A stretch of 64,000 nucleotides of DNA from Prosopocoilus inquinatus (Eukaryota; Arthropoda; Insecta; Coleoptera; Lucanidae). A model generated the notes under the pieces. It made no database searches, had not been told where the DNA came from, and worked only from the letters and a program-made list of their open reading frames with translations. Position numbers and translations under genes: made by a program. The first letter of the stretch is position 1; every line of letters begins with the position of its first letter. The DNA lies in contig CM069871.1 in NCBI GenBank assembly GCA_036172665.1, forward strand, positions 3,534,001-3,598,000. Reading direction: 5' to 3'. Positions 2,976 to 52,099 of this stretch are shown piece by piece.

Positions 2976-4228
2976 GAGAGGTAGACCGACTATGCAAGTG
3001 ATAGGTTGATCGCCCGAAATTAATTAGAGAAGGAGAGAATATTAGAGAAAAAAAAAGAACGTCACTTTCAAGGGCTTTCGTGATTAATGCGACTGCTACT
3101 TGACTTTGCGGATTTATTAATAAATATTTTTTGCCCGGGCCGAACGACTCTCAACCATAAACAAATTTCAGATCGCTTAATTAATTAATCGATTAATTTA
3201 ACGGATTTTTTTTCTCGTAAAGTTCCTGCTGGCAATGAAGATGTGCACGTACCCTCCTCGGAGATGACGATTGAATATTTAAAAATCACTCACCGAGCGG
3301 TAGCTGGCGCTGCCAACATAAGAAATTCAAATATAAACAGCGGCGGCTATAATTCAGAGGTTTATAATCCGCTGGAGAAATATATATGTAATTTTCGGAT
3401 TTTATTGTGCATTAAAATACATGAAGCCATAACCATAAAGAAAAACATTAAATTTGTCTATGGGATAATGCGAGGAGGAAGAGAGAGCTATTCTCCTCGC
3501 ACTTCGACCGAACTCGTGAGATCGTATATCATCGAAACATATTTCTTTAGCACAAGGGGATTGATATTTAAAGGACGATTCGTTTTTAAAATGCACCCAC
3601 CCAATTCGTTGGGAAGCTTTTAAACCAAATTAAAGAAAAAATGTCGACATTACTTCCCAAAAAATTCTTACAAATGTTTAGACAGCAAGACCTTAAAAAT
3701 TAAAGCTTAATATTATTATATTTACTTTATTAAAAACCTTAACAAATCAAAAAAGTATGCGAAGGTCTAAATAAACAGCAATAATAACAGTAATACTACA
3801 TTTAATACAGTAATAATCAGGGAAAAGAATTCAGACCACATAGCGTTTACGTCAAATGAACTATTTACTCCTACCACCTTTCTGCGGCCCCCCTGATGTA
3901 TCGAATTATTATTGAGTAGGAGGCATTCGCACTTCGCAGAAATTATTGTAGGCGAGGCTGATACAGTCCGAGTTACTAAATTTTCATACCGTTCGCCAAA
4001 CAAGTGGTCCTAATTCTTTCCCCTGGTTATAATACATACCGATTGTTTCATTGAAACTTGAAAACACCCGAAGACAAGCAGCCAAGAAACGGCTGTTGTT
4101 ACTGATTTGGCCAACTACACCTGCCTTGATTTAATTATGGGGCAGCGTTCTACTTTCACCGCATTTAATTTAATTTAAAAAAAAACATGTAAACCAAGTT
4201 TAACCAATAAAAAAATTAAATAAATTAA
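2976..4228. other. unique sequence, possible cis-regulatory island
   Basis: No repeat is evident between about 3060 and 3620, and base composition is more balanced than in the surroundings. The stretch at 3176-3200 is dense in TAATTAAT and ATCGATTAAT words, typical homeodomain targets. Open frames occur on both strands (3243-3623 plus, 3402-3596 minus) but neither resembles a known protein. A regulatory role is only a guess. Confidence 0.2.
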
Positions 4229-4230
4229 AC

Positions 4231-4280
4231 AGCGACATCCTACGATCGCTTTTTGACCTGTACAGAGGTTGCTCGAAATT
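4231..4280 (+). mobile_element. fragment of the hammerhead-element family
   Basis: The module AGCGACATCCTACGATCGCT is followed by TTTTTGACC and then, after a deletion, by CAGAGGTTGCTCGA. That last word matches the 3' stem I strand of the hammerhead motif at 30642-30657 (read on the minus strand). The ribozyme core itself is missing. Confidence 0.6.
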
Positions 4281-4889
4281 TTTTTTAAAAAAATTAAACA
4301 AAAATAGTAATAATAATATGAAATAAAAGAGAATGTCTGGCTTATGAATTTAGAACCTTCCACGGAACGATTAGGTACCATCATCTCGGCAGTTACGGAA
4401 ACGAATTACACTTGCGCACATTCAACATCTTAAATAAAGCGCTGCGTTAATAAAGGGTAAAAGGCTTCATTAGAGGTAATAACGGCTGAAAGTAAAAACA
4501 CAAACAATCTTCCTCAATTACGGTCGAGGAGAGCCTGAATAAGATTAAATTTGATTCGAAAAGAAACGAGGAAAATCATGAATCCATTGACTGTGGGACG
4601 TAATCCGATCGTACAAAATTACTTCAATTAAATTAAGAAAAGAGAAACATTATTAAACATGATTCTGTGAGGGATTAGGCGAACGTATCCAACTAAAAAA
4701 AAAGAAAGAAAAGATGAGAATATGGAAATACGGGATCCTTCGTAACAGAGAGAGCTCCTCATCGAAGGTGAAGAGGTTAAGCGGCTGGAGGAGGTCATAA
4801 CAAAGACTGTCAGTGAAGGATGAGGTCTAACAAAGGAAGAGGAGACTTAAATGATGACATGACCAAGTCAACATACCTAATCGGTGATG
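4281..4889. other. gene-free sequence
   Basis: I see no gene and no clear repeat. A G-rich patch lies at about 4740-4840. Confidence 0.35.
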
Positions 4890-8460: not shown

Positions 8461-8829
8461 GAATAACACACCCGTACAAAGTTTTTATATTATCGATTTA
8501 AAAAAAAATAAAATACTAACAGAAAGGAAAAGGTTGTTAACAAGGGGAAAAAAGAGTAAGTGAATTACGACCTTGAGAAAAGACAAAAACGTTCCAGAAG
8601 TCATCCGAAGCATCCCGAGTACGTACAACGCCGTAAATTTTGCCGCCCAATGATCGCGTTGGGCGCCAAATAGAAATCAACAGAGTAACTAACACAAGCC
8701 GTTTGTGAAAATTAGAGAAAGCAGTGGTCTCAAGTTTGATCCTTGAAGCGCTTCAGAATTGACAGGATAAGAAAGTGAAGCTGCATTACATTTGTTTTGC
8801 TGTATGTATAGGAACGAAATAACGAAGAA
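8461..8829. other. gene-free sequence
   Basis: No gene is supported. A 10-base word at 8659-8668 (minus strand TGGCGCCCAA) resembles a lysine-tRNA primer-binding site of LTR elements. No LTR end lies beside it. Confidence 0.3.
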
Positions 8830-8895
8830 CAGATAAAATAGCGACATCTTACGATCACTGCAATCAAAAACGATTTGCACAAAAAAATTTTTTTC
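8830..8895 (+). mobile_element. deleted fragment of the hammerhead-element family
   Basis: AGATAAAATAGCGACATCTT is joined to CACTGCAATCAAAAACGATT and TGCACAAAA. These are the two ends of the arrangement seen on the minus strand at 24236-24378, with the ribozyme middle deleted. Confidence 0.6.
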
Positions 8896-9055
8896 TAAGA
8901 ACGAAATAACGTTTGTTCACTAATTATTACATCGTTGTACTCATGAGTGGCTGTGGAATTAATCATTTTTAAATAATTATTGTTTCAAATTGTCATGAAA
9001 CATTAAATTTGTTGTTCGACTGTTAATATATCAGCCAATATCAATTGGACGATAC

Positions 9056-9446: not shown

Positions 9447-10143
9447 GTACATTTGATTTGATTTGAACCTAATCAAACTCAACCCAAAGCTGTAACAATG
9501 CCAAGAATCTGTTTACGTTTGATTTCACAGTCGTCCAGGACTACAATAATCGTTGGACACCCGTTAGATTACATTATACAGAATTTAAAAAGCAAAGAGA
9601 ATGTACAGTGAAGTCTCTGCAAGGCAGACGCTTTTTTTAAGCCGCGGACATTCTTTTCCTATTCTGTTCTGTGTCTTAGAGAGATTTGACTGTATTAAAA
9701 AAATCTACAATTTTTGTTAAATACTTTCACATCGACGAAGCGCCGTTTTCGCTTCAAAAACAAACAAAAAAAAAAACGTATCAGGGGGTGTTCGACAAAA
9801 AGTTCGCAGCGCAAAAAAATTTAATTAACGTCGACATTTTTCATACGCTTTTTTGGGGTCCGCTAATAGGACGGAAAATACAGTCGCGATTTTTTCCGCT
9901 CCTTTTTTTTTGCGAATAATTGGAGATTTGTAAACTTGTTTCGCTTTTCAATTGCCGGATGGCGACACAGCTATTTCTGGCCGGGCGCTAAAAACCGCCG
10001 CCTGATAGACTTCGATGATTGTGCCATCCACATTCAATTCAGCCGGCTGCAGTTTGTGCCGGAGTGTTTATTTTTCAGCTTTACGTTTTCGTTCCTAATT
10101 ATTTAATTTTAGAGCTTTCAATAAATACATATACACACACGCT
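9447..10143. other. gene-free sequence
   Basis: Mostly unique, with poly-T and poly-A runs. The open frame at 9686-9919 is not recognised and looks incidental. Confidence 0.3.
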
Positions 10144-11918
10144 CGTGCCAGTTTTCTTTTTTTACGGCGCAAACATACAGTATTGGTAAAGGTCTAACTG
10201 AACACACTGAATGATGGTGTGCGACAGGAAACGAACGCACTATAAAAATAAAGAAGGAACGCCTCCCGTGTGTGTGTATTGGATGAGGCCTGGGGCACGA
10301 ACGCTTACGACATCAATCGAAGATATAAGATATGTTTAAAAGCCCACTGGCCAATGATGCATACCAATTGTATCTGAAAGTCATGTTAATATTATTGCTT
10401 TTATACAACTCTTATAAAATAGGTTTACAGTAACTATTTTGTTGTCTAATTACTGTGGACTTCTTTTAGGTATACCTTTTATAAAAAAAAAAAAAACTAT
10501 TTCGTTGGATAACAGTTACCAATAGTGGAGTTTCATTTTAAGGTCACAAAATATCTTCTTAAGTACACCATCCAATTTAGTTTTCGTTTTCGTGCCAGTT
10601 TTTTTTTTTTACGGCGCAAACATACAGTATTGGTAAAGGTCTAACTGAACACACTGAATGATGGTGTGCGACAGGAAACGAACGCACTATAAAAATAAAG
10701 AAGGAACGCCTCCCGTGTGTGTGTATTGGATGACGCCTGGGGCACGAACGCTTACGACATCAATCGAAGATATAAGATATGTTTAAAAGCCAACTGGCCA
10801 ATGCTGCATACCAATTGTATCTGAAAGTCATGTTAATATTATTGCTTTTATACAACTCTTATAAAATAGGTTTACTGTAACTATTTTGTTGTCTAATTAC
10901 TGTGGACTTCTTTTAGGTATACCTTTTATAAAAAAAAAACTATTTCGTTGGATAACAGTTACCAATAGTGGAGTTTCATTTTAAGGTCACAAAATATCTT
11001 CTTAAGTACACCATCCAATTTAGTTTTCGTTTTCGTGCCAGCTTGTTTTTTACGGCGCAAACATACAGTATTGGTAAAGGTCTAACTGAACACACTGAAT
11101 GATGGTGTGCGACAGGAAACGAACGCACTATAAAAATAAAGAAGGAACGCCTCCCGCGTGTGTGTATTGGATGACGCCTGGGGCACGAACGCTTACGACA
11201 TCAATCGAAGATATAAGATATGTTTAAAAGCCAACTGGCCAATGCTGCATACCAATTGTATCTGAAAGTCATGTTAATATTATTGCTTTTATACAACTCT
11301 TATAAAATAGGTTTACAGTAACTATTTTGTTGTCTAATTACTGTGGACTTCTTTTAGGTATACTTTTTATAACAAAAAAAAACTATTTCGTTGGATAACA
11401 GTTACCAATAGTGGAGTTTCATTTTAAGGTCACAAAATATCTTCTTAAGTACACCATCCGATTTAGTTTTCGTTTTCGTGCCAGTTCTTTTTTTACGGCG
11501 CAAACATACAGTATTGGTAAAGGTCTAACTGAACACAATGAATGATGGTGTGCGACAGGAAACGAACGCACTATAAAAATAAAGAAGGAACGCCTCCCGC
11601 GTGTGTGTATTGGATGAGGCCTGGGGCACGAACGCTTACGACATCAATCGAAGATATAAGATATGTTTAAAAGCCAACTGGCCAATGCTGCATGCCAATT
11701 GTATCTGAAAGTCATGTTAATATTATTGCTTTTATACAACTCTTATAAAATAGGTTTACAGTAACTATTTTGTTGCCTAATTACTGTGGACTTCTTTTAG
11801 GTATACCTTTTATAAAAAAAAAAAAAACTATTTCGTTTGATAACAGTTATCAATAGTGGAGTTTCATTTTATTAAGGTCACAAAATATCTTCTTAAGTAT
11901 ACCATCCAATTTAGTCTT
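10144..11918. repeat. 443-bp tandem repeat, four units
   Basis: Units begin at CGTGCCAG at about 10144, 10591, 11034 and 11477 (periods 447, 443, 443). The copies differ at only a few positions and in homopolymer length, so amplification was recent or the array is homogenised. Each unit carries GAACGCACTATAAAAATA, a TATA-like word about 40 bp before a GTGTGTGTATTGG stretch, and CTTCTTTTAGGTATA. Whether these words have promoter activity is unknown. Confidence 0.92.
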
Positions 11919-13570
11919 CAGTACAACATGAAATACTCGAATTGCCGTTAGGAGGCTTCGCCGACTTAGTTTTTTTATGCAAATCAAAATTCATCGTCAG
12001 AGTTGTCTCGATATTTTTAAGAACTTTACGCGCCACGTGAAATACATAAATTTATTGCACATAAATATTTATTAAAAAAAAAGTTATTGTTATATTTACT
12101 TTAATTACCTTGTTATTGATTTATAGATAATTGAATTTTATAATTTTTTATGCGAAATAATAATAATTGTATTATTCCATATGTGTTTTAGAACAATGGA
12201 TGCTGGCATTCTATCAGCCCATTAGCGATTATAAAACCTATAAAAAGCTGCAATATCAACATGTTTTTCTAAAGATATTTATTATGCGACACATTGCAAC
12301 CTTTATAAGAGTGAATTATTATATTAATACTCTCACTAAGACTTACTGTTGTGTCTGTGTAACACAATTCAAACGATTCTCCTCCAAATCCTGTATAAAT
12401 TCTTTTAGTTACGTCTTCTATGGGGTAATATGTGCCCGATACACGTTTGAAATTACCTTTATTTGTTGTTATCATATATTTTAAACATAACAAAAATACT
12501 CTGCAGCTCACAAAATATGTAATTATAAGCATAACTTCCAAATCATCGTTAGAAATTATTTCAAGAGCGACTCAATGTAACGCAGAAGAAGGCTTTTCAG
12601 TAGTGCTTGACGTATATGGTCTATCAAAAAAAAAAGAAAGACCGTTTTTTCGGCCTCCTTCAGTACTTCTACAAAAATTCAAAATTTTAAGGAAATTCGA
12701 AAAAAAAAATGAGGATTGATGCTTGAAAGACAAAAAATATTGAATCAACTATTTTGAAAACGAAAAAAAAAAGTAAAAATCGCAAAGAATTTAAACACGA
12801 TATTTCAAAGAAGAAGTAAAGAAGAAAATAGATAAAAAAAAACGTCAGAAATTATCATTAATAATGAAAATTAAATAAAAATAAAATAATAATAATAATA
12901 TATTTAAAATAAAACATTTTATTGAGTCCTTTATTGAGTATTATTGAGAAACTAAACATTTTAAAATGAAAATCGATCGAAATAAGATATCTTAAAAATG
13001 AAAAAGATAAAAATTTTAGAAAATTTATGCACAATATTTTTAAATATTAAGAAATATTTTAAAGTCAACTCAAATCCAGTCCAACTAAACTGAAGCTAAG
13101 CGAACCCAACCCTACTAAACTAAACCAAAACCCAAACGAACTCAGTTCCTTTTAAGCACAAAATTTGAGGCCTTAAAACGTTTCAAGGGTTAATCAATCC
13201 GACCAGACTGAACCTAAGTGCATCCAAGCCAAGGATGGAATTTTACAACAGATAAAAAAAAAAGTAAGAAATTATCAAGAATCGAAACAAAAACGTTAAA
13301 CAAAGTAAGAAATTGTTAAAAATCGAAACAAAAATGTCAAACATAAAAAATTTTAAGGAAATTCGAAAAAAAAACTGTAGAAGACTGAAATAAGAAACGT
13401 TAAACTTAAAAATTAAAAAAAAATAAAAAATCCAAAAAATAAAATAAACGGAAAAAACTTTTCGAAGTCAACCCAACCCAATTAAACTGAACCAACCAAA
13501 GAAAAGAATTCAGAACTTTATTTATTACAAGAGCGTTTTTATGCTGTCTTTTCTTTTGATTTTTTTTGTT
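11919..13570. other. AT-rich, partly low-complexity sequence without a supported gene
   Basis: From about 12700 the sequence is A-rich with AAATTTTAAGGAAATTCGAA repeated near 12678 and 13347. TCAACTC/CCAAC-type words recur at 13060-13220 and 13470-13500. Overlapping open frames at 12167-12541 occur on both strands; neither is recognised. Confidence 0.35.
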
Positions 13571-15725
13571 TTTTCTCAATTTTATTTTCTCTACATTTTC
13601 CTCATTCATTTGCTTTCTCCGTTTTCTCTTTCACCCCGCCATCACTGACTTTCTGCGATTTTCATTTATCCTTCGTTTCCTATTTACAGATAGAAATGAA
13701 CTAGTTTTTTATCGCTCCGTGAGCCAGGGGTGGGCAATTGCCACCCCCTTTGCCTCACCTTGGCTAAGCCCACGTTCACAACTAAAAAAAATTGCATCAA
13801 AATATTTTGTAAAATGACAAATAACTGTCGGAACATGGGCGTAACCAGACATTTTTCTAAACAGGGGCTTATTTAAAAAAAAATTATTAAAACAATCTGT
13901 AATTATTATTACATGTTTAATAGTATAGGTATAGATATATTGGTTTAAGAAAATCATAATTTATTTTTTAAACATTTGAAAAGTGACTTGTCTCGATTGT
14001 AAAATTTTATTTTCTCTACATTTTCCTCATTCACTTGTTTTCTCCGTTTTTTTTCTCGCCTCGCCGTCACTGACTTTCTGCGATTTTCATTTATCTTTCG
14101 TTTCCTATTTACAGATAGAAATGAAATAATTTTTTATCGCTCCGTGAGCCAGGGGTGGGCAACTGCCGCCCCCTTTGTCTCACTTTGGCTAAGCCCACGT
14201 TCGCAACAAAAGAAAAAAACTGCATCAAAACATTTGGTAAATTGACAAACAGCTGTCGGAACATGGGCGTAACCAGACTTTTTTCTAAGCAGGGGCATGT
14301 TTTAAAAATTATTAAAACAATCTGTAATTATTATTACATGTTTAAAAGTATAGGTATAGATATATTGGTTTAAGAAAATCATAACCTATTTTTTAAACAT
14401 TTGAAAAGTGAGTTGTCTCTATTGTAAAATTTTATTTTCTCTACATTTTCCTCTGATATTTTATTCATGCGCTTTCTCCGTTTTTTCTCTCACCTCGCCG
14501 TCACTGACTTTCTGCGCTTTTCATTTATCCTTCGTTTCCCATTTACAGATAGAAATGAAATAATTTTTTATCGCTCCTTGAGCCAGGGATGGGCAATTGC
14601 CGCCCCCTTTGTCTCACCTTGGCTAAGCCGACGTTCGCAGCTAAAAAAAAAACTGCATCAAAACATTTGGTAAATTGACAAACTGCTGTCGGAACATAGG
14701 CGTAACCAGACTTTTTTCTAAACAGGGGCATATTTTAAAAATTATTAAAACAATCTATAATTATTATTACATGTTTAATAGTATAGGTATAGATATATTG
14801 GTTTAAGAAAATCATAACTTATTTTTTAAACATTTGAAAAGTAAGTTGTCTCTATTGCAAAATTTTATTTTCTCTACATTTTCCTCATTCGTTTGCTTTC
14901 TCCGTTTTTTTTTTCTCACCTCGCCGTCACTAACTTTCTGCGCTTTTCATTTATCCTTTGTCTCCTATTTACAGATGGAAATGAAATAATTTTTTATCGC
15001 TCCATGAGCCAGGGTGGGCAACTGTCGCCCCCTTTGTCTCACCTTGGCTAAGCCCACGTTCGCAGCTAAAGAAAAAAGCTGCATCAATACATTTGGTAAA
15101 TTGATAAGCAGCTGTCGGAACATGGGCGTAACCAGACTTTTTTCTAAACAGGGGCATATTTTAAAAATGATTAAAACAATCTGTAATTATTATTACATGT
15201 TTAATAGTATGGGTATAGATATATTGGTTTAAGAAAATCATAACTTATTTTTTAAACAGTTTAAAAGCGAGTTGTCTCTATTGTAAAATTTTATTTTCTC
15301 TAGATTTTCCTCTGATGTTTTATTCATTTCCTTTCGCCGTTTTTTCTCTCGCCTCGCCGTCACTGACTTTCTGCGCTTTTCATTTATCCTTCGTTTCCTA
15401 TTTACATAAATGAAATAATTCTTTATCGCCCCGTGAACCAAGGGTGGGCAACTGCCGCCCCCTTTGTCTCCCCTTGGCTAAGCCCACGTTCGCAACAAAA
15501 AAAAAACTACATCAAAACATTTGGTAAATTGACGAACAACTGTCGGAACATGGGCGTAACCAGACTTTTTTCTAAACAGGGGCTTATTTAAAAAAAAATT
15601 ATTAAAACAATCTGTAATTATTATTACATGTTTAATAGTATAGGTATAGATATATTGGTTTAGGAAAATCATAATTTATTTTTTAAACATTTGAAAAGTG
15701 AGTTGTTTGTATTGTAAAATTTTTA
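13571..15725. repeat. 428-bp tandem repeat, five units
   Basis: The anchor GAGCCAGGGGTGGGCAA recurs at about 13721, 14146, 14580, 15006 and 15435 (periods 425-434). Each unit contains CACCTTGGCTAAGCCCACG, ATGGGCGTAACCAGAC and AAACAGGGGC. A plus-strand frame of about 72 residues recurs in units 2 and 4, but other units disrupt it. GGGCGTAACCAGAC resembles the terminal region of hAT-like elements, which suggests the satellite grew from a transposon end. Confidence 0.92.
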
Positions 15726-22339: not shown

Positions 22340-24235
22340 TAGAATAATAATGATGATAATATCGAATCGAAATCATCAAATTTTTTGCGTTAACTTTTAC
22401 AACACACTTCATTCTGCAATGTCATTTCAACCAGCTGTACAGTCAAACCATTTGGGATTTTCAATACGATAAATGCACCTCACCTACCAATTTAATTTAT
22501 TTGTAAGTGTTTTTTTTATTATTTTATTATTTAACGTAATTTTAATGGTCCAAATTCTCGATGGCTGTTTCAAAAACGTGTCCACGTGTGTGGTGGAGCT
22601 TTTTGTCCACAGCTTTGTGATTGCTGGCAGAATGTGCGGAACGTCGCCGATCGGCGTGGAGGCTCGAACTTGCTTTCTTTCTTTCTTTCTTTGGACTGTC
22701 TGTATATATATATTGTTTCAAATATAATTGGATTTACAATTCAAAGTAATGGAAGTCAGTGCGCAGAAAAAAGCGAGCCCGTTAATCCGAACGAAATGAA
22801 TTATTACGGTTCACGGTGATGGACAAGGCGATCTCGAAAAAGTTTGTCAGCACTTTTACCGGAATTTCCATACGTTTCCTCTCGCAGGCCGGCCAACGAT
22901 TTTGAAAGTCGTGGCGAAGAAGTGGGAAAACCTACGTCGGCACCACAAATAATTACCGGCAAATGCACCGTTAGACTCACGGTAAAACATTTGGATGTGC
23001 TCTGCTTGAACGCTTTTATGCACTCATTTTATTGGCCTCTATGAAATCTAAAAGTAATAATGGTTTATTTTCATTAACAGGTTCTCAAGCTCTTTGGGGC
23101 TTGATTGCATTCTACTGTACAAGAGTACATACCTACTCATCATACGACGAAATCAGGGCGAAAGAAGTTGGCCTTCCTCTCTTTTAAGTAACGTAACTAC
23201 TCGATCGTCTAGTCAATCCAGGGAAAAGAAAAAAAAGGTTTCAGTTTTTCAACCAAACTAAAAAATGCGAAAGCTATTTTCACAATAATTAAAAGCACGC
23301 CTTAAGAATTTATACTGAAGGAAGTTTTAAAAGAGCGTGACCCACGCTATTGCGCTATTTCCTTGCAACGATTAACAGAAAGAACTGTCGTTATGAAAAA
23401 CGAAAAGAAAAAGAAAACGCAAAGACATTCTTAACCTCTCGATTGCGGGGTCGTTAATAAGCGATTTCAAAAGTGGGAGGTTCCCTTAGAAACCCGCACA
23501 CTGCAATCGTAAACCAATGAAATCCCTTTGTCGTCACTCGCACTGAGGTCTAAATGAATTAAATTTAAAACAGCTGGTTTAAAAAAAGCCAATGTATGAG
23601 TTCTGAAACTGGGAAACTTGCGCCGTGCACATTTGCGCCACCGATACATTTGCGCCATTCTAACTTAAAGTTGAACATTTGCGCTTGGATTTTGGCAAAT
23701 TACCTTTTTCTTGCATGGACGAAAATTTACCTGAAAATTTGTTCCGTGAGAAAATTTGTCCGAAAACTTATTTCTTGTGAATCAAAAATTTGCCACCTCC
23801 TACGGCTCCCTCCCACCTGTCACCTGTACGACTTTCCGTTCTTCATTGATAATACACTGCTAAATAATAAAACATGAAAATGGAAAACATGAAACGATTA
23901 ATTTTGTGTCCATCTATTCTCAATTCTCTCGAACTACAAAAAAAAAAAAAACTGTCCGTAGCGCCAATTAAATGTCAGCATTAGCTTAATTTTAATAAAC
24001 GAGTAAAAGGTAGCTCTTTTAGACACTTATGGCATACTCACAATCGGGACTGTTTATCAAAAGGTGAATGGAAATAATTCTTAAATATTCTCAATGCAAA
24101 GATCTGTTTTCGTTTTCGAGTTAAAAGTTGCAAAAAAATCTCCAAAAGCAATTATTTCCATATTTGTTAAATTTATATTTTGAAAGGCATTGCTAATTAA
24201 TTAAAATACTTTTGTAAAATAAATACTTTTTAGAA
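22340..24235. other. gene-free mixed sequence
   Basis: Largely unique. A (CTTT)n run lies at 22672-22693. Several short open frames (for example 22473-22727 plus and 22844-23044 plus) are not recognised and have no splice or homology support. GC content is moderately raised at 22560-23040. Confidence 0.3.
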
Positions 24236-24378
24236 AAATTTTGTCCAAATCGTTCTTGATTGCAGTGAAAACCTCGAGCAGCCTCTGGACAGCTGTTTCA
24301 GCCCTGCTTGGGGCTTCTTCTATCCTACTGCAATGTCAGGTCAAAAAGCGATAGTAAGATGTCGCTATTTTATCTGTT
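24236..24378 (-). mobile_element. rearranged hammerhead element, core broken
   Basis: Read on the minus strand: AGATAAAATAGCGACATCTT, the AGCGATAGT/ATCGCT hairpin, GCAGTAGGATA, then GAAGAAGCCCCAAGCAGGGC, TGAAACAGCTGTCCAGAGGC and TGCTCGAGG. Stem II, GAAAC, the palindromic stem III and the 3' stem I strand are intact. The conserved CTGAAGA is altered to TAGAAGA and the 5' stem I strand is replaced. It should therefore not self-cleave as a standard hammerhead. Compare 30642-30710. Confidence 0.75.
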
Positions 24379-24599
24379 TAAAATAAATACCTTTTGAGCT
24401 TGCTTTCAATAAATTGTAACGAATGTTTTTGTTTAATTTTGTTTTTTGCTTTTTGCTTTACTCAATTTTCTTGAGTCTTGTCTTCAATCATTTTTCTTCA
24501 TTTTGTTTTATTTTGTTTCTTTTTTTTTCGATTGTCGTTTAATAATTTTGTGGGGAGCGGTACATCGTTTACTCTCTATTAAATGGAGAAGAAAAAAGA
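24379..24599. other. T-rich spacer
   Basis: T-rich low complexity with no supported gene. Confidence 0.3.
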
Positions 24600-28720: not shown

Positions 28721-30254
28721 CCGAACTAAAGGAGGAAATAATAAATACAATATGGTTTAGTGTAATACTGCTCTCGATGGGAGAAGTAATTTCAATAAAC
28801 TTTATTCTGCCATCAGCATTTGTAACATAACAACAAATCCGTGCTTTGGTAATAAAATTAATTAAAACTGGTAAAACTGAATATATTTTGAAATGAATCG
28901 AATTTAAACGCCGAAAAAAAAATAATAATTTAAAAACAGTAGCGCATTCTCCCACGTTTACATAATATGTAAGCAAGTAAGTACATACGTAGGTATTCAT
29001 ACTGAGATGATTTGCATCTCTTCTTCTTATTAGTAATGAATGAAATGTACGTACATCGAAGTCATTTCACACCTTTGTGAGCATGCTGTTGTATTTATTC
29101 AGAATGCCATTTCGAGAATACCTAACAACTCTGTGTGATAGATAATTTAAATAAATGATTTAACCCCCCTGCAAAAAGAATGGATACCACTACATTCTTA
29201 CATCGTTCTTTTCACTGATTCTGTACATTGGAATGCTTACATACATAAATCATTTCGCTCTAGTTTCTACTATTATTAATATTAAAGGTAACCAACTCAA
29301 TTAAACAGTCTGTATATAGAAATCTGTGTTGCATCCCAAATTTAAGGCCATTGAAATATTATTACGAAGTTGTTTAAATATGAATATAAGTCTTAACGTA
29401 CTTTTATACTTTATTGTTACATTAACAAAATGGTGGTTAAGTTTACCCCCCAAAGAAAAAAAAAGTTATAATCAGAGTATATACAAAATGATTTCTTTTC
29501 GTGGAACACCTTGTATATTATTCTTCCAATCTAAATTCTTTCACTTTGCGTAGATAGCCTTTTACATCGGTTACATCTATACACAATTGATCCTGCGAGT
29601 CTGTACGACGACGTACGCGATTTAATGAAATTCAGCTATTCCAACGATTCTGAAGTTCACATTCTCAACTCACCTATTTTGTAAGTGGGATTTAATTAAT
29701 TAAAAGTTTCTTTTTCTACACATTCCGGTGATAAAGCGTGCAAAGCAAGTAACACTATCTAGAATGTCAATCTCTTCTTACTTTTGCTTTGCTTTTGAAT
29801 AGAAAAAATTTTTTAGCCAACTATTAAAAAAAAAAAAAAACAAAAATAAAATGTAGGTACATAGGTATTATTGTAAAAGTAGAACTAACTCGCCAGTGAT
29901 GACTGTCCTGGACAAGAATAAGAAAGTGCTGCTGTCTCTCTTCGCGGTACACACTTATTAACGCCAAATTAAACGAGAAAGACGATTAACGTAAATATTG
30001 AATGCGTAAATAACTCGTAACTTCCATGGAGAGCAAGTTATTGTGCTCGTCACGACCGGCACAGAAATACTATTCACGGGTTTACTCTCTTGTAAAATTG
30101 TTTAAAAATCGTACGCCGAAGAGAGACTCTGATGGTTACAAAGGAGCTAATCCGAAATCCAAGTCCTTTTTTTGGGCTAATTATTTTCTGACAATGAACC
30201 CTCGCAGTATTTCGGGATTTCCTTGTCTTCACATTTTTTTTTTTTGCTCACTTT
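28721..30254. other. gene-free, mostly unique sequence
   Basis: No repeat array and no recognised gene. Open frames at 28707-29000 (minus), 29326-29553 and 30026-30256 (plus) are short and unrecognised. The last frame runs into the LINE remnant. Confidence 0.35.
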
Positions 30255-30257
30255 AAG

Positions 30258-30434
30258 GAACCAACTAGAATTAATGTGAATAGCGCAACATTAATTGACT
30301 TTGTTATTACTAATAATAAAAACATTGACTGTAAAGTTTGCCATACACCAAGAATCAGTGACCACTCTATTATTACAGTGAATATTCATATTTTAAGACC
30401 TAATAATAAAAAAAATCATATTTCAAAAGCGTAG
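30258..30434 (+). pseudogene. endonuclease C-terminal fragment of the LINE
   Basis: The frame from 30258 gives TRINVNSATLIDFVIT and then PRISDHSIITV. The Leu-Ile-Asp and Ser-Asp-His signatures are the last conserved blocks of the LINE apurinic-like (EEP) endonuclease that nicks target DNA. The upstream catalytic part is absent. The frame ends at TAG 30432. The expected continuation (FQKRSYKNYN) is in the next frame from about 30421, so a frameshift lies there. Confidence 0.8.
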
Positions 30435-30450
30435 CTATAAAAATTATAAT

Positions 30451-30600
30451 GTGGCTAAATTTCAAGAAAACCCAAGAAATCTGAAATGGAATAATAGTAA
30501 AACAAATGTTGAGGAATTAGCTAATAACATTATAAATGACATATCTAATGTATTTAATTCAATGTGTCCTTTAATGAGTAGTGAGATACCTAAAAGATTT
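30451..30600 (+). pseudogene. linker region of the LINE polyprotein
   Basis: The open frame gives FQENPRNLKWNN and then VEELANNIINDISNVF, a helical segment typical of the linker between endonuclease and reverse transcriptase. It runs into the inserted hammerhead element at about 30592-30608. The LINE resumes near 30986 as KWINYEIISAMRERDYKL, then shifts frame again at about 31055-31090. Confidence 0.7.
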
Positions 30601-30985
30601 CAGAAAAATTTTGTGCAAATCGTTTTTGATTGCAGTGAGAACCTCGAGCAGCCTCTGGACAGCTGTTTCAGCCCTGCTTGGGGCTTCTTCAGCAGAAACG
30701 TAGCTCGACATTCCCACTGCAGACCAAAAACGACTTGCACAATTTATTCGCAAATGCGATGTAAGAATGATGAACATATAAAGTAGCGACATCTTACTAT
30801 CGCTTTTTGACCTAACATTGCAGTAGGATAGACAAATTGAAGCGGGATTTGCTCCTAATGAGTCCCCCATGCAAGGCGGCCATGCTTGCTGTCAAAGCAT
30901 AATGAAAGATTTTAGAAAAATTTTGTGCAAATCGTTTTTGATTGCAGTGAGAACCTCGAGCAGCCTCTGGACAGCTGTTTCAGCA
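30592..30985 (-). mobile_element. retrozyme-like hammerhead element inserted in the LINE
   Basis: On the minus strand the element begins at GCTGAAACAGCTGTCC (30985) inside a truncated ribozyme. It runs one monomer to a complete hammerhead and ends about 65 bp into a second monomer. The sequence 30904-30984 repeats 30592-30672 at an offset of 312 bp. LINE sequence flanks both sides (..MSSEIPK before, KWINYEI after). No reverse transcriptase or other frame is present, so it would depend on enzymes in trans. Retrozymes and Penelope-like termini are known to carry type I hammerheads in tandem units; assignment here is by structure only. A 47-bp module (30784-30830) also occurs in the relatives near 4.2, 8.8 and 24.3 kb. 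Confidence 0.7.
30642..30710 (-). ncRNA. type I hammerhead ribozyme
   Basis: Minus strand 5' to 3'. The stem I 5' strand has an outer helix TCGAGC (30708-30703) and an inner helix TCTG (30696-30693). Then comes core CTGAAGA (30692-30686), fitting CUGANGA. Stem II is AGCCC/GGGCT with loop CAAGCA (30685-30670). Core GAAA is at 30669-30666. Stem III is the palindrome ACAGCTGT (30666-30659). Predicted cleavage is after C at 30658 (context GTC). The stem I 3' strand CAGA (30657-30654) pairs with TCTG, and GCTCGA (30649-30644) pairs with TCGAGC. An internal loop in stem I (TACGT opposite about GGCT) could contact loop II. A very short palindromic stem III is known from Penelope-like and retrozyme hammerheads, which may act as dimers. 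Activity is inferred, not shown. Confidence 0.82.
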
Positions 30986-31053
30986 TAATAAATGGATCAA
31001 TTATGAAATTATTTCAGCAATGAGAGAACGAGACTACAAGTTACCAAGAGGCA

Positions 31054-32290
31054 ATGATAACAAAAGTAACCGGAGTGTGGGAAGAATTTAAACTACAAAG
31101 AAATAAAGTTAATGCAATGATAAGGCGAGCAAAAGAAGAATATCTACATAGTGTAATTGATGCTAACAAAAATAATAGTAAAGAAATGTGGAAAAATATA
31201 AGAAATGTCTTGGGAAATAAAAAAATATCTGTAAATGATAGTGTAATATTTGATGGTAGTGAAATAAATACATCTGAAATGATTGCAAATAAGTTTAATG
31301 CATATTTCTTAGACAGTATAAGTGATATAATAAATATGATTCCTAAATTCAATATAACAACTGAAATTAATGAATGCTTTTCTAAAATGAAAAAATTTAA
31401 GAAAATGGAAATGAAGGCCTTGAGATCAATTGTGACTGTTCTTAAAAATACTAATGGACACGAAGATGGAATTTCTACAGTGGTTTTCAAAGATGCATGT
31501 GAGGTTGTGGGTGATCGTATTTTGGACATGATAAATACATCATTGGAATATGGTGTGTTTCCCAGCAAATGGAAAATAACATATGTTACCCCAATTCCAA
31601 AAGTGACGAACTCAAATCGTTGTGAAAACTTTAGACCCATAAATACAGTACCTCCCTATGAAAAAATAATTGAAATGTTTGTGAAAGAGCAATTGAAAAA
31701 CTATTGTGATGAAAATAATATCATAACCGAAAAACAATCGCGACTCCGCAAACAACATTCTTGTGAATCAGTAATTATAAGTGTATGTGATAAATGGTTG
31801 AAAAAGATTGACGATGGTAGTATTGTCCTAGCTGTGCTCTTAGATTTTAGAAGAGCATTTGAAACTGTTAATAGAAATTTGTTGTTGGAGAAACTGAGAC
31901 ATTATGGAATAAGTGATACGGTGTAGGAATGGCTTCGTTCATACTTAAGTGACAGGAAGCAAAAAGTTAAATTCAAGGATTACGTTTCCAATGACCTTGA
32001 AATTAAGCATGGTGTTCCGCAGGGAACAATTTTGGGACCACTTCTTTTCATATTGTACATTAATGATATGGTAAAAGTTGTAAAAGATTGTGAAATTTGC
32101 TTGTTTGCTGATGATACAATGCTATATATAAGAGGTGATAACAAAGGTACTATGATCGATACTATAAATATAGAATTGGATCATGTTTATAGATGGTTAT
32201 GTAATAATAATTTGTGTGCAAATATGAGTAAAACAAAGTTTATGATTATCGGCAACAATTATAAATTAAATAACTTGAAAATAGATAAAG
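31054..32290 (+). pseudogene. reverse transcriptase of the LINE, one stop codon
   Basis: The frame encodes WEEFKLQRNKVNAMIRRAKE near the start, VTPIPK and FRPINTVPPYEKI (finger region), then palm motif A LLDFRRAF with the catalytic Asp at codon 31843 (residue 264). A TAG at 31924-31926 interrupts it. The same frame continues with EWLRSYLSD, GVPQGTILGPLLF (32011-32049) and FADDT, whose two catalytic Asp codons lie at 32110-32115. A frameshift near 32290 moves the rest into the next frame. All palm catalytic residues are kept, but the stop makes the copy inactive. Confidence 0.92.
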
Positions 32291-32941
32291 ATGTACTTAA
32301 TAAACAATATAAGAGTTGAAAGAGTTAATGAAATTAAATATTTAGGTATCATAATCGATTGTAACTTAAATTTTAAAAGTCATGCAAATTATGTAATGCG
32401 AAAAATGTCACAAAAATTAAATTTTATGTATAGAGTAGGAAAATCATTAAGCATGTATACTAGAAGTTTATTATATAAAGCTTTTATTGCTCCTCATTTA
32501 GAATTTTGCTCCACGGTACTTTTCCACTTAAATAAAAATGAAATACAGCAATTACAAAAAATACAAAATAGAGCGATGCGACAAATTTTAAAATGTAGTA
32601 TATACACTCCAGTTGAAAAGATGTTAATGAGTCTAAATTTAATGAGTGTTGAGCAGAGAATTATTTATAAAACAATGATTTCTATTTACAAAATGAAGCA
32701 CAAACAATTGTCGTTTTACATATGCGAGCGACTTATATATGCCAGTGATATACATAGTTATCCGACAAGAAGTGCAAGTAATTTCTTTGTTGGTAAATGC
32801 ACTAAAAGTAAAACAAATAAATCATTGTTTTATAAAGGGCTGCGAATATTTAATGATTTACCAAGCGAAATCAAAACTTATAATTTAAGTAATTTTAAAA
32901 AGGAGTTAATTAATTTTGTTAGAACTAATTTTAAAATATGA
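32291..32941 (+). pseudogene. C-terminal domain of the LINE polyprotein
   Basis: In the frame after the shift the product reads VNEIKYLGIIID, then LLYKAFIAPHLEFCSTVLF, IQNRAMRQIL and finally KGLRIFNDLPSEIK with FKKELINFV. These are the usual blocks after the reverse transcriptase in CR1/Jockey-type elements (thumb and C-terminal tail). It ends at TGA 32939. A 3' UTR of about 115 bp follows. Confidence 0.88.
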
Positions 32942-42479: not shown

Positions 42480-44900
42480 ATTAGGGGCTACCGCCCGTCC
42501 CTTCACAAACTAGATTTTAATTAAGAAAAATAATGGACTTTTAGAAATAAGGCAACAAATCCAGAGGGTTGCCGCCCTCAGTTTTGTGTCTCGTTTCGCT
42601 CTCCTATGCGAGTAGTTAGAAATTCGTCAACTTCCTTTGATATCAACGAATCAAATGGACTTGTTCCAGTCACAATCTTGTATGTGTGAAGTCTGCCAAT
42701 GCGTGATACACTTCGTCGCCATGGAAAATGTACACACTGACGCGTACTACGCGTTTATACTCGCAATAAAAAATGAAGTTCGCTCTCCTTGGGGAGAAAA
42801 TGGCAAGCATGAATCAAATGTTAAGATTTACAAGACTCTTATCTTTAATAACATAAAATAAATTAATTATAGCTATCGCCCCTTCACAAATTAGATTTTA
42901 ATTAAAAAAAACCGACTTTTAGAAATAAAGTAACGATCTAGAGGGTTGCCGCCTTCAGTTTTGCGTCTCGTCACGCTCTCCTACGCGAGTAGTTAGACAT
43001 GTCTCAACTCCCTTTGATATTAAAGAATCAAATGGACTTGTTCCAGTCACATTCTTATATACGTGAAGTCTGCCAATGCGTGATACACTAGCTCAGCATG
43101 GAAAAATGTACCCACTGATGCGTACTATGCGTTTACATTCGCATTAAAAAGTAAAATGTGCTCAAATGTACTCACATGTGATAGTTTCTTGTCAATGAGC
43201 AAAAAAATAAACTGCTCCCCTTTCTCTCTCTCTCTTTTTGGTGAGAAAATGGCAGATATAAATCAAATATTAAGATTTACAAGACTCTTATCTTCAATAA
43301 CAGAAAATAAATTAATTACAGCTACCAACCCTTCATTAATTAGATTTAAATTTAAAGTAATCGACTCTTAGAAATGAGATAACGACCTAGAGGGTTGCCG
43401 CCCTCAGATTTGTGCCCCGCTTCGCTCTCCTGCACGAGTAGTTAGATATTTCTCAACTTTCTTTGATATTAACACATCAAAGGGTAATGTTCCAGTCACC
43501 ACCTTGTACATGTGAAGTCTGCAAATGCGTGATACACTTCGCCGTCATGGAAACATGTACTCACTGACGCGTTTATACCCGCATTAAAAAGTAAAGAGCT
43601 CAAGTCAACATCTTCACATGTGACCTTTTTGTTAATGAGAGAAAAAGATAAACAGCTCGCGGGCTCCATCTCTCTTTCTATCTACGGTGAGAAAATGGCA
43701 AATATGAATCAAATGTTAAGATTTACAAGACTCTTATCTTCAATAACAGAAAATAAATTCATTACAGCTACCAACCGTTCCCAAATTAGATTTAAATTTA
43801 AAGAAATCGACTCTTAGAAATGAGATAACGACCTAGAGGGTTGCCGCCGTCAGTTTTGTGCCTCGCCTCGCTCTCCTGCGCGAGTAGTTAGAAATTTCTC
43901 AATTTCCTTTGATATTAACGAATCAAATGGACATGTTCCAGTTACTACTTCGTATATGTGAAGTTTGGAAATGCGTGATACACTTCGTCGGCATGGAAAA
44001 ATGTACCCACTGACGTGCTTATACCCGTATTAAAAAGTGAAGAGCTCAAATCAACATCTTCATATATGACCTTTTTGTTAATGAGAGAAAAGAATAAACA
44101 GCTCGCGGGCTCCTTCTCTCTCTCTTTCTTTCTTTGGTGAGAAAATGGCAAATATGAATCAAATATTAAGATTTACAGGACTCTTATCTTCAATAACAGA
44201 AAATAAATTAATTACAGCTACCAACCCTTCACAAATTAGATTTAACTTTAAAGAAATCGATTCTTAGAAATGAGGTAACGACCTAGAGTGTTGCCGCCCT
44301 CAGTTTTGTGTCTCGCCTCGCTCTCCTGCGCGAGCAATTAAATATTTTTCAACTTCCTTTGATATTAACGAATCAAATAGACAGACATGTTCCAGTTAAT
44401 ACTTCGTATATGTGAAGTTTGGAAATGCGTGATACACTTCGTCGGCATGGAAAAATGTACCCACTGACATGCTTATATCCGCATTAAAAAGTAAGGAGCT
44501 CAAGTTAACATTTTCAAATGTGACTGTTTTGTAAATGAGAGAAAAAATAAACAGCTCGCGGGCTCCATCTCTCTGTCTATCTACGGTGAGAAAATGGCAA
44601 ATATGAATCAAATATTAAGATTTACAAGACTCTTATCTTCAATAACAGAAAATAAATTAATTACAGCTAACAACCCTTTACTAATTAGATTTAAATTTAA
44701 AGAAATCGACTCTTAGAATTGAGGTAACGACCTAGAGGGTTGCCGCCTTCAGTTTTGTGCCTCACCTCCCTCTCCTGCACGAGTAGTTAGATATTTCTCA
44801 ACTTCCTTTGACTTTCAGGAATCAAAGGGACATGTTCCACTCACTACTTTGTATATGTGAAGTTTGGAAATGCGTGATACTCTTCGTCCGCATAGAAAAT
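42480..44900. repeat. 449-bp tandem repeat, six units
   Basis: GAGGGTTGCCGCC recurs at 42564, 42941, 43390, 43836, 44286 and 44735 (periods 377, then 446-450). Units share CGCTCTCCTGCGCGAGTAG, AATGCGTGATACACTTCGTC, AGAAAATGGCAAATATGAAT and ACAAGACTCTTATCTTCAAT. Four units keep a frame of about 41 codons from ATGGCAAATATG to a TAG. Nearly all differences among these frames change the amino acid, so purifying selection on a peptide is not indicated. Confidence 0.92.
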
Positions 44901-49715: not shown

Positions 49716-51085
49716 AAAAAAAGTCAGAGAAACCGCCAGGGTGTATCTTGAGTCCAATGTTTTTTATTACAGGCCAATTAAAGGTTTAAGAAAGAACGAC
49801 AAAATCAAGTGGTGACAAGGTTTACAGAAGATGAAGGGAAAGCCATTGTCCAGGAGATACATGAAGTTATAATTAAAGAAATTGAAAAAAAGAAGAAAAT
49901 TCCTCATTTCTTCTTCTTTTTGGACGCTTCTTCTCAAATCAAATCAAAGAATAGTAAACAGCTCCAAGAACTATAAAGAATGATTGCAAGAACTGAAGGA
50001 ACATCAGCCATCTCCAAAAGGTACATAAAGCTGAAGAAATCGGAAAAGAAGCTCAAGATTCAAACGGACCGAAAAACAAAACAAAAATTGGAATTTAAGA
50101 AAGTGTTTTGGCGAGAGTTTCCAATTTAGAAGAAGAATGGTACACCTTCAGCACCGTTCATCACGTACTTCAAAAAAGTCAGAGAAACCGTCAGGGTATA
50201 TCTTGAGTCCAATGTTTTTTTTATTACAGGCCAATTAGAGGTTTAAGAAATAACGACAAAATCAACTGGTGAGAAGGTATACGGCAGATGAAGGGAAAGC
50301 CATTGTCCAGGGGATGCATGAAGTTATAATTAAAGAAATTGAAAAAAAAAGAAGAAAATTCCTCATTTCTTCTTCTTTTTGGACGTTTGTTCCCAAATCA
50401 AATCAAAGAATAGTAAACAGCTCCAAGAACTATAAAGAATGATTGCAAGAACTGAAGAAACATCAGCCATCTCCAAAAGATACATAAAGCTGAAGAAATC
50501 GGAAAAGAAGCTCAAGATTCAAATGGACCGAAAAACAAAACAAAAATTGGAATTTAAGAAAGTGTCTTGGCGAGAGTTTCCAATTTAGAAGAAGAATGGT
50601 ACGCCTTCAGCACCGTTCATCACGTACTTCAAAAAAGTCAGAGAAACCGTCAGGGTATATCTTGAGTCCAATGTTTTTTATTAAAGGCCAATTAAAGGTT
50701 TAAGAAATAACGACAAAATCAACTGGTGAGAAGGTATACGGAAGATGAAGGGAAAGCCATTGTCCAGGAGATACATGAAGTTATAATTAAAGAAATTGAA
50801 AAAAAGAAGAAAATTCCTCATTTCTTCTTCTTTTTTGGACGTATGTTCCCAAATCAAATCAAAGAATGGTAAGCAGCTCCAAGAACTATAAAGAATGATT
50901 GCAAGAACTGAAGAAACATCAGCCATCTCCAAAAGGTACATAAAGCTGAAGAAATCGGAAAAGAAGCTCAAGATTCAAATGGACCGAAAAACAAAACAAA
51001 AATTGGAATTTAAGAAAGAGTCCTGGCGAGAGTTTCCAATTTAGAAGAAGAGTGGTACGCCTTCAGTACCATTCATCACGTATTT
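49716..51085. repeat. 457-bp tandem repeat, three units
   Basis: AAAAAAGTCAGAGAAACCG starts units at 49716, 50172 and 50632. The units are almost identical and end with CCGTTCATCACGTACTTC (third unit: ACCATTCATCACGTATTTC). Each contains an A/T hairpin (AAAAAGAAGAAA, ATTCCTCAT, TTCTTCTTCTTTTT) and a Lys/Glu-rich partly open frame that all three units interrupt with stops. Confidence 0.92.
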
Positions 51086-52099
51086 CTTGAGGGTTTCATT
51101 TTTCTCCATTAATGATATGAGCTTCCTCTTCAGTAAATCGTAGGCAACTTCAAAAAGCACGACGTAAAAATCATCAAAAGTCAAATCCGCAAGTTCTTCT
51201 GAGAAAAGGCGTAACAATAGTTTTGGTAGCGACGCAATTCAAGCCTCTTCAGCACCACTTGTGTATACACCAAGTCATACTTTTGTTTCATCACGAGGTG
51301 ACCTTGACATGACCATTGCCCCGTCAACTCAAAAGTTCTTCTCTGGCGAGATAATCCTTTCTTTGGTTGCCAATAACCAGCAAGTCTTCAAAGTTCTTTT
51401 TAAAAAGCTGACGTTTCTTCCTCATTCTAACCCATGCCCATGTTGCTCAAGCAAACCAAAAAAAGGTTTTTATTTCGCTCTTTCTGACCGGCGTCCAAGC
51501 ATTTTCAATTGCTGAGGAGGATAGGCCTAAGCATTTTTTTGATTTGCATAAAATCATTAATCTGTCATCCGCCAAACAAAAATTCCTCAACCAGGAAAGT
51601 GATACCTAAAGAAAAATCAGAAACTGTTCAGATCTAAGTCTGGGCTTACACAGAGAACGCAAAACCTTTTTTTTTTTTTTAGGATCAGTTTAAAGTCTGG
51701 GCTCCCGCACACAGAGAACGCAAAACCTTTTTTTTGGGAGCTTGGCAAATTTTTTTGACCTGGTCTTAATTAATGGATGGTTGGTCACTCTGGTCAGCGC
51801 GTGTAGTAGAATTCTGACCTAGTTCCTCAAATTGGTTTTCTGATAAACTTACAGACGACGACTTAAACAGCAGATTGAAGAATGCAAAGAAGAACTGTCA
51901 CCTTTACTTAATCTTCGTTTCTGCGGAGTTTGCCAAATATTCTTAGAGCTACCTGGTCTTGATGGTGGATGCCTGAACAATTCTCAACTAATTCCTTCCT
52001 TTCCTCTTGACGGATGAGTTTGCAGCTGACGAAGAAACTTAAAAGCTAAATACTGTCGCCATCACTTAAACCTCTTCTTCTCCTTCGTATCCACTAATC
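51086..52099. other. gene-free sequence with a local duplication
   Basis: GTCTGGGC...CACAGAGAACGCAAAACC occurs twice, at about 51638-51666 and 51695-51728. From about 51780 the first diverged units of the following array appear. The frame 51261-51515 is not recognised. Confidence 0.4.

Follow-up and report, generated by a model that had tools for sequence, protein, structure and literature searches.

The window (the whole stretch of 64,000 nucleotides of Prosopocoilus inquinatus DNA that was analysed) harbors a type I hammerhead ribozyme within a 312-nt repeat that we consider, with a probability of about 0.7, to be a non-coding, non-autonomous retrozyme of the metazoan type, inserted by a Penelope-type machinery that primes on one RNA circle from both cut ends of the target. 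Most of the copies examined carry their units in two opposite, head-to-head arms, and it is this two-armed architecture, together with the two start sites, that is new, membership in the metazoan non-LTR retrozymes being a known kind. The earlier note on this DNA, made from the letters alone, could see neither the two-armed relatives, nor the link to Penelope-like elements, nor that the window copy is a one-armed insertion in a LINE. Two-armed insertions bear on the open question of what moves retrozymes. The features of the window are collected in Table 1.

Table 1 Coordinates of the retrozyme copies, their parts and the interrupted LINE in the window
Feature	Position	Strand	Basis or remark
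Type I hammerhead	30644..30708	-	Sequence; strict descriptor with shuffles; RF00163 23.8 bits (below cut-off 34)
One full 312-nt retrozyme unit	30658..30969	-	Position 1 = 30969, position 312 = 30658
Whole insertion, one arm of ~1.2 units	30604..30984	-	Comparison with uninterrupted LINE copy L057
LINE junction at start site A	30598..30604	-	Unit positions ~54-60; bases below 30604 also LINE target
Predicted unpaired strand with start site A, internal copy	30901..30922	-	Unit positions 48-69, circular fold
Predicted unpaired strand with start site B	30760..30784	-	Unit positions 186-210, circular fold
Interrupted LINE	30978..32941	+	Open frames 31024-31926, 31927-32319, 32285-32941
Second retrozyme insertion, two-armed, short	24227..24378	-	Ends ~61 and ~197; 12-bp duplication 24215-24226 / 24379-24390
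Third retrozyme insertion, two-armed, very short	8825..8898	+	13-bp duplication 8812-8824 / 8899-8911
Old, diverged retrozyme remnant	4208..4289	-	Pieces of both arms

All the hammerhead pieces named in the earlier note were located by sequence inspection at the minus-strand place it gave: CTGAAGA from 30692, then GAAA, a GTC ahead of the expected cut (which, from the sequence, would fall between 30658 and 30657 on the minus strand), a stem II of 5 bp (AGCCC/GGGCT) with the loop CAAGCA, a stem III formed by the self-complementary ACAGCTGT, i.e., a zero-loop palindrome, and a two-part stem I (TCTG/CAGA and TCGAGC/GCTCGA) around an internal loop. The motif spans positions 262-312 of one retrozyme unit and 1-14 of the next. 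A strict descriptor (the core, at least 4 bp per stem, type I order), applied to both strands of the 64 kb, had its sole match here and was matched in 0 of 200 dinucleotide shuffles of the window. The covariance check, which the same note had named as a way to refute its reading, came out below threshold for this copy, with RF00163 giving an 85-nt stretch 23.8 bits against a cut-off of 34 (E 3.4e-4); at the gathering threshold no Rfam family was matched, and on an 801-nt stretch the sole hammerhead listed was HH9 with 14.5 bits (cut-off 52). The minimum-energy fold of a 69-nt stretch, equalled by 9 of 200 shuffles, has the CUG of the core base-paired to the stem III CAG, a non-catalytic arrangement, and the same mispairing is seen in the predicted fold of the whole unit, both linear and circular. 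Given that the core is partly paired away in these predicted folds, the retrozyme monomer may be a poor ribozyme. Stem II of the window copy closes with A-U, several other copies having G-C there.

Scanning the genome assembly (650 Mb in 173 contigs) with RF00163 gave at least eight other hammerheads of 33.7-42.6 bits, a lower bound since 74 of 83220 candidates were scored, and seven of the eight pass the cut-off of 34. Outside the ribozyme, two of them (L003 and L008) are older and clearly related to the retrozyme unit, while for L001, L002, L004 and L007 such kinship is weak or non-significant. The hammerheads of L001, L002, L004, L005 and L007 have a different stem II (GGTCC type) and look like older retrozyme subfamilies; they stand above the Rfam cut-off and the young family below it. 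An alignment of 11 hammerheads, window copy included, keeps 88.9% of pair cells (9 of 500 shuffles as high), its covariation score is matched by 6 of 500 shuffles, and both-sided changes occur at three pairs in stems I and II; neither the number of pairs changed on both sides (417 of 500 as high) nor that of further pair types (491 of 500) rises above shuffles in this alignment. A chance match with no ribozyme behind it would suit both the sub-threshold RF00163 score and the partly mispaired core, but we give this reading next to no credence and reject it, since the descriptor is absent from all the shuffles; the genome matches that pass RF00163, the conserved pair cells and the both-sided changes argue against it as well.

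A partial second copy does lie 312 nt upstream, and the spacing to it gives the unit length. The unit has a GC content of 0.433 and is predicted to fold as a long rod, with z scores of -8.7 for the linear and -7.8 for the circular form; judging from the sequence, the retrozyme would cleave itself and give rise to circular RNA. In the predicted circle, no unpaired runs are longer than those at 48-69 and 186-210, which hold both of the regions where insertions end (start sites A and B, see below) and flank a domain (70-185) that caps the long stem 1-47/228-261, partly paired alternatives of the start-site regions being present in the circular-fold ensemble. The B region is internal and unused in the window copy, the two-armed copies being those with B ends at 191-200. 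No reading frame of at least 130 aa lies inside the window insertion, and with it none of the reverse transcriptase or GIY-YIG coding of Penelope-like elements. A 116-nt query of the central domain returned 0 candidates, possibly since its words are very common.

A search of the beetle's own genome, with 40 of 965 first-look candidates scored, returned at least 70 matches, among which the full-length ones are mostly 98-99% identical, and the family is young. The 30 loci taken from this search are biased to young insertions with arms of more than one unit. Counted per insertion over 169 segments of 32 insertions, divergence is lowest in the ribozyme (12/1627 vs 128/7630 elsewhere; Fisher p 0.0034, or 0.043 with the start-site loops omitted from the comparison). 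There is thus good support for the earlier reading of a type I hammerhead carried by a retrozyme-like element: in unit length, GC, folding and duplications the repeat family matches a retrozyme, and the low ribozyme divergence and the paired changes among the 11 hammerheads of the genome point the same way. Seven full-length matches plus fragments were seen within ~160 kb (C1:21446856-21604180), perhaps a hot spot or a segmental duplication.

The inner joints of the insertions are head-to-head in 29 of the 29 listed and differ in nearly every copy (an overlap of 0-6 bases in 19, 1-24 extra bases in eight, and overlaps of 20 and 46 bases in two), whereas the outer ends are fixed. Exact target-site duplications among 30 insertions were of 12-16 bp in 25, of 9 bp in one and of only 7 in four, and when the left flank of one insertion was paired with the right flank of another, a match of at least 12 bp was found in 4 of 870 mismatched pairs. 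The duplications have a GC content of 0.19 vs 0.345 for the window. All 26 insertions with a duplication of at least 9 bp have one A end and one B end, for which the probability would be 2^-26 if A and B fell at random with equal chance at each end. The B ends lie at unit positions 191-200 in 26/26, and the A ends at 54-61 in 22/26, the others being at 41, 46, 64 and 67, where A/T runs make the alignment uncertain. Four of the 30 insertions (L050, L009:5424, L039 and the window copy) are without clear duplication; L050 has ends A and B, and the right end of L039 is unclear. The insertion at L009:5424-5862, two-armed with ends at A and 46 and no clear duplication, is a clear exception to the A-plus-B layout. 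In seven old, diverged copies (six stretches), the opposite-strand piece ends at 189-208 in six and at 155 in L017.

Arm lengths of whole insertions range from ~0.1 to 3.3 units, and longer arms of 4.9, 5.88, 6.0 and 10.85 units either run off the examined stretch or have one end unclear. The 30-insertion table was made after duplicate removal, leaving out L021 and L056 (the window itself) and using one each from the pairs L023/L026, L045/L046, L035/L037, L039/L040 and L031/L034; L025, L027 and L041, which run off the examined stretch, and a piece at the end of L057 stand outside it, and a match table with many pieces of exactly 49 nt, which has the look of a windowing artefact, was left out of the end counts. 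By eye, GA or TGA is frequent at the start of the target sequence beside the A end, a hint that the endonuclease may favor certain cutting sites.

Tandem units and long inverted repeats are also what one would find in a satellite DNA amplified by recombination, or in a fold-back DNA transposon, with the hammerhead as a relic. However, what we see are dispersed insertions with duplications, fixed outer ends, varying inner joints and low ribozyme divergence, and owing to the duplications and to inner joints that vary between copies we reject such a DNA-level origin, the probability of which we hold to be negligible.

The variants carried by the arms point to a common template. The difference was 0.73% between opposite arms, 0.83% between units within one arm and 1.29% between different insertions (the allele tests used segments of at least 94% identity and 25 nt), and the opposite arm was closer than other insertions in 20 of 28 cases and not closer in 8 of 28. 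Minority alleles fixed in one arm were also fixed in the other in 30 of 59 cases, and in 20 of 23 where the arm has at least two units, vs a mean of 2.2% in a permutation control (0/1000 as high). Positions represented by four or more units, in 18 insertions, held 85 variant alleles, 67 of them in a single unit, 11 in all units and 7 intermediate. This is the pattern that would be expected from one short molecule copied repeatedly from both ends, with the single-unit mutations arising later, and both arms probably derive from one same template molecule; the junctions would preserve in the genome a record of a short template copied again and again.

The same machinery could instead have used as its template a linear multimeric transcript of an array, with internal starts and arms that end where the transcript ends, a reading that we regard as unlikely and still weigh seriously. 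Genomic arrays do exist (L025, at least 10.85 units), unprocessed RNA is described as the main in vitro substrate of the Anolis Penelope-like element (PMC11167929), some alleles are intermediate within an insertion (7/85), and a linear multimer from one homogeneous array would fit the allele pattern too. Against it, the predominance of single-unit (67/85) and all-unit (11/85) variants and the frequent sharing of alleles between arms are those of one short ring recopied, and the ribozyme is the least diverged region.

The window copy itself lies inside a LINE reading frame; the upstream part of this LINE (matched from 30253) sits before 30604, and its first two, adjoining frames carry RVT_1. 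In the empty site, i.e., the LINE of L057, the sequence reads through CCTAAAAGATTTCAGCATAATAAATGG uninterrupted. Here the left LINE part stops at TTTCAG (30603), the element starts at 30604, and the right LINE part resumes with TTTCAGC (30978-30984), bases common to element and target; apart from this repeated TTTCAG(C), the window copy has no target-site duplication. Comparison of these junctions with the empty site thus makes it a one-armed copy started at A, and, as read from the sequence, it is an exception in the family, with one arm from site A and a far end joined to the LINE target via a 7-nt microhomology. A duplication-free joint of this kind is known from a Penelope-like element that had entered a non-LTR retrotransposon (PMC3846280). 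The interrupted LINE (30253-32941) is fairly young: among the 34 candidates scored, ~15 cover the queried stretch almost completely, at 94-98% identity.

The genome also houses a Penelope-like element, which is abundant and very young, its copies being near-identical over the compared parts, with a tandem period of ~2604 bp in L051. Its GIY-YIG family has at least 150 genomic matches, most with identical score, among the 150 scored of 2232 candidates, and neighboring pairs within 10 kb among those scored are minus/plus, i.e., head-to-head, in 47 cases, minus/minus in one and plus/minus in none. Frames of 788 aa are found in L051, one of which, when scanned, carries RVT_1 and GIY-YIG; a minimal hammerhead core with stem II lies beside the frame in L051-L055 by pattern only, and Rfam lists no hammerhead in L052. 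All five Penelope-like insertions examined (L051-L055, four of them selected for short inverted pairs) have head-to-head arms, one of which reaches ~38 nt beyond the other at its outer end; their duplications measure 11-15 bp, the 15 being in a T run. The ~38-nt interval between the ends makes up most of a predicted hairpin, and the bases just before this hairpin are paired with sequence further on in the predicted fold. A PDB sequence search with the Penelope-like protein gave no match.

Given this layout, two fixed start sites with one of each per insertion provide a helper signature in the junctions, shared in layout with the resident Penelope-like element. The retrozyme and this element have no significant similarity around the ribozyme and the start sites (274 of 2000 shuffles as high); on this ground descent of the retrozyme from the element by sequence is rejected, and recognition would depend on shape or involve a helper of a different family. 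TCGAGG and TTCTCACT, a shared short motif near the ribozyme, proved not significant.

LINE-1 twin priming offers another way of obtaining inverted arms: there, too, reverse transcription is primed by either end of the cut target, which leaves the 5' part inverted and the target duplicated, with a start at the poly-A and a second site that varies. Classical twin priming of this sort could have moved the retrozyme, e.g., by the LINE that hosts the window copy, and LINEs are indeed present and fairly young. However, both outer ends of the retrozyme are fixed, the second at 191-200 in 26/26 where a variable site would be expected, no poly-A tail was found in the retrozyme junctions inspected, and the resident Penelope-like element has the same two-site layout. 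LINE mobilisation is rejected on account of the second site, which is not variable, and we consider it quite improbable.

Studies of Penelope-like elements provide a parallel. The purified Anolis protein cuts and extends both target strands, initiating within the RNA at two sites, the interval between which is the genomic tail, and in vitro the insertion is unaffected by hammerhead mutants (PMC11167929). Rotifer (A. vaga) families have inverted head-to-head ends with 8-10-bp duplications, for which the authors favored self-priming on an antisense template, taking palindromes at the inverted joints as a sign (PMC3846280). Self-priming or template jumping, rather than a second priming at the other target end, could likewise be invoked for the inverted arm of the retrozyme, as overlaps of 20 and 46 bases occur at two of the 29 joints and the rod has extensive self-complementarity. 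Yet fold-back alone gives no second fixed outer end beside the duplication, as seen in 26/26, and a Penelope-like protein that extends both target strands argues against it too; we assign this origin a very small chance.

Priming of one circle from both cut ends by Penelope-type machinery thus remains our preferred reading, and it would proceed as follows. Tandem genomic units would be transcribed, the hammerhead would cut the transcript into 312-nt monomers, and a cellular ligase would close these into rod-shaped circles. A Penelope-type machinery, i.e., a GIY-YIG endonuclease with a reverse transcriptase, would then cut AT-rich DNA with a stagger of mostly 12-14 bp, and each cut end would prime at its own fixed site, A at ~54-61 or B at 191-200, on either side of one folded domain. 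Both reverse transcripts would circle the ring, often for more than one round, and their 3' ends would then be joined. The motif, the family, the end pair, the duplications, the variable inner joint, the arms of more than one unit, the shared alleles and the Penelope-like parallel are seen directly in the sequences; cleavage, the circle, its ligation, the identity of the helper and a single template molecule for both arms are what we infer. Since the two strands did not differ in start site in the Anolis in vitro work (PMC11167929), a strict rule of one site per strand would be one that the genomic copies of the retrozyme suggest.

We postulate further, at slightly better than even odds, that one circle templates both cut ends at once, that a two-headed Penelope-type complex grips the domain flanked by the start sites, that the insertion consists of paired rolling-circle transcripts, and that the retrozyme is a shape mimic of the two-site hairpin of the Penelope-like element without any shared sequence. 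Helper, start sites and template form become testable with purified protein.

The retrozyme resembles the metazoan non-LTR retrozymes (Cervera and de la Pena 2020, PMC7229834) in its type I hammerhead, in tandem units, which are of ~170-400 nt in those described there, in a GC content below 50%, in duplications of more than 4 bp, in a highly self-paired predicted unit and in its coexistence with Penelope-like elements; found here are the hammerhead motif, the 312-nt tandem unit with a GC of 0.433, duplications of 9-16 bp in 26 of 30 insertions, a self-paired fold and a co-resident Penelope-like element. It differs from them in its zero-loop palindromic stem III, its two head-to-head arms and its two fixed start sites, and the words inverted, head-to-head and twin are absent from the main text of PMC7229834. 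A very short or palindromic stem III, suggesting dimer cleavage, is shared with the minimal hammerheads of Penelope-like elements, newt satellite and axolotl retrozymes (PMC7229834, PMC7761336), from which the retrozyme differs by the additional helix and the internal loop of its stem I.

With Penelope-like elements (PMC11167929, Anolis; PMC3846280, A. vaga) the retrozyme shares the head-to-head layout, the duplications, two internal starts and AT-rich targets. An optional tail of 30-40 nt is a feature of Penelope-like elements in the same two studies, and the resident element displays the layout, the duplications and the tail. However, those elements encode a reverse transcriptase and an endonuclease where the retrozyme has no long frame, and its start sites are ~139 nt apart as against ~38 in the resident element; the retrozyme works like a Penelope-like element and is not one. 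Penelope-like elements have been proposed as strong helper candidates for metazoan retrozymes (PMC7229834), and reviews of animal retrozymes state that no motif reveals the mobilising element, with Penelope-like elements or LINEs as candidates (PMC7761336, PMC7229834, PMC11722881). No report of two-armed retrozyme insertions was found in the literature searched, the coverage of which excludes most subscription journals. The junction signature suggests a way to scan other animal genomes.

Long tandem arrays are also present in the window at 6297-8267, 10143-11919, 13578-15723, 42794-44899 and 49717-51086, with periods of 269, 443, 425, 449 and 459 bp, respectively; BLAST with the retrozyme unit gave no match in these five arrays, and a distant search of phage records gave none either. 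A nuclear COX1 copy, translated with code 5, matches an entry labelled Lucaninae at 98% identity over 97% of its length, which makes a stag beetle or close kin the probable host. At least 42 COX1 matches occur in the nuclear assembly, one of them nearly complete with code 5.
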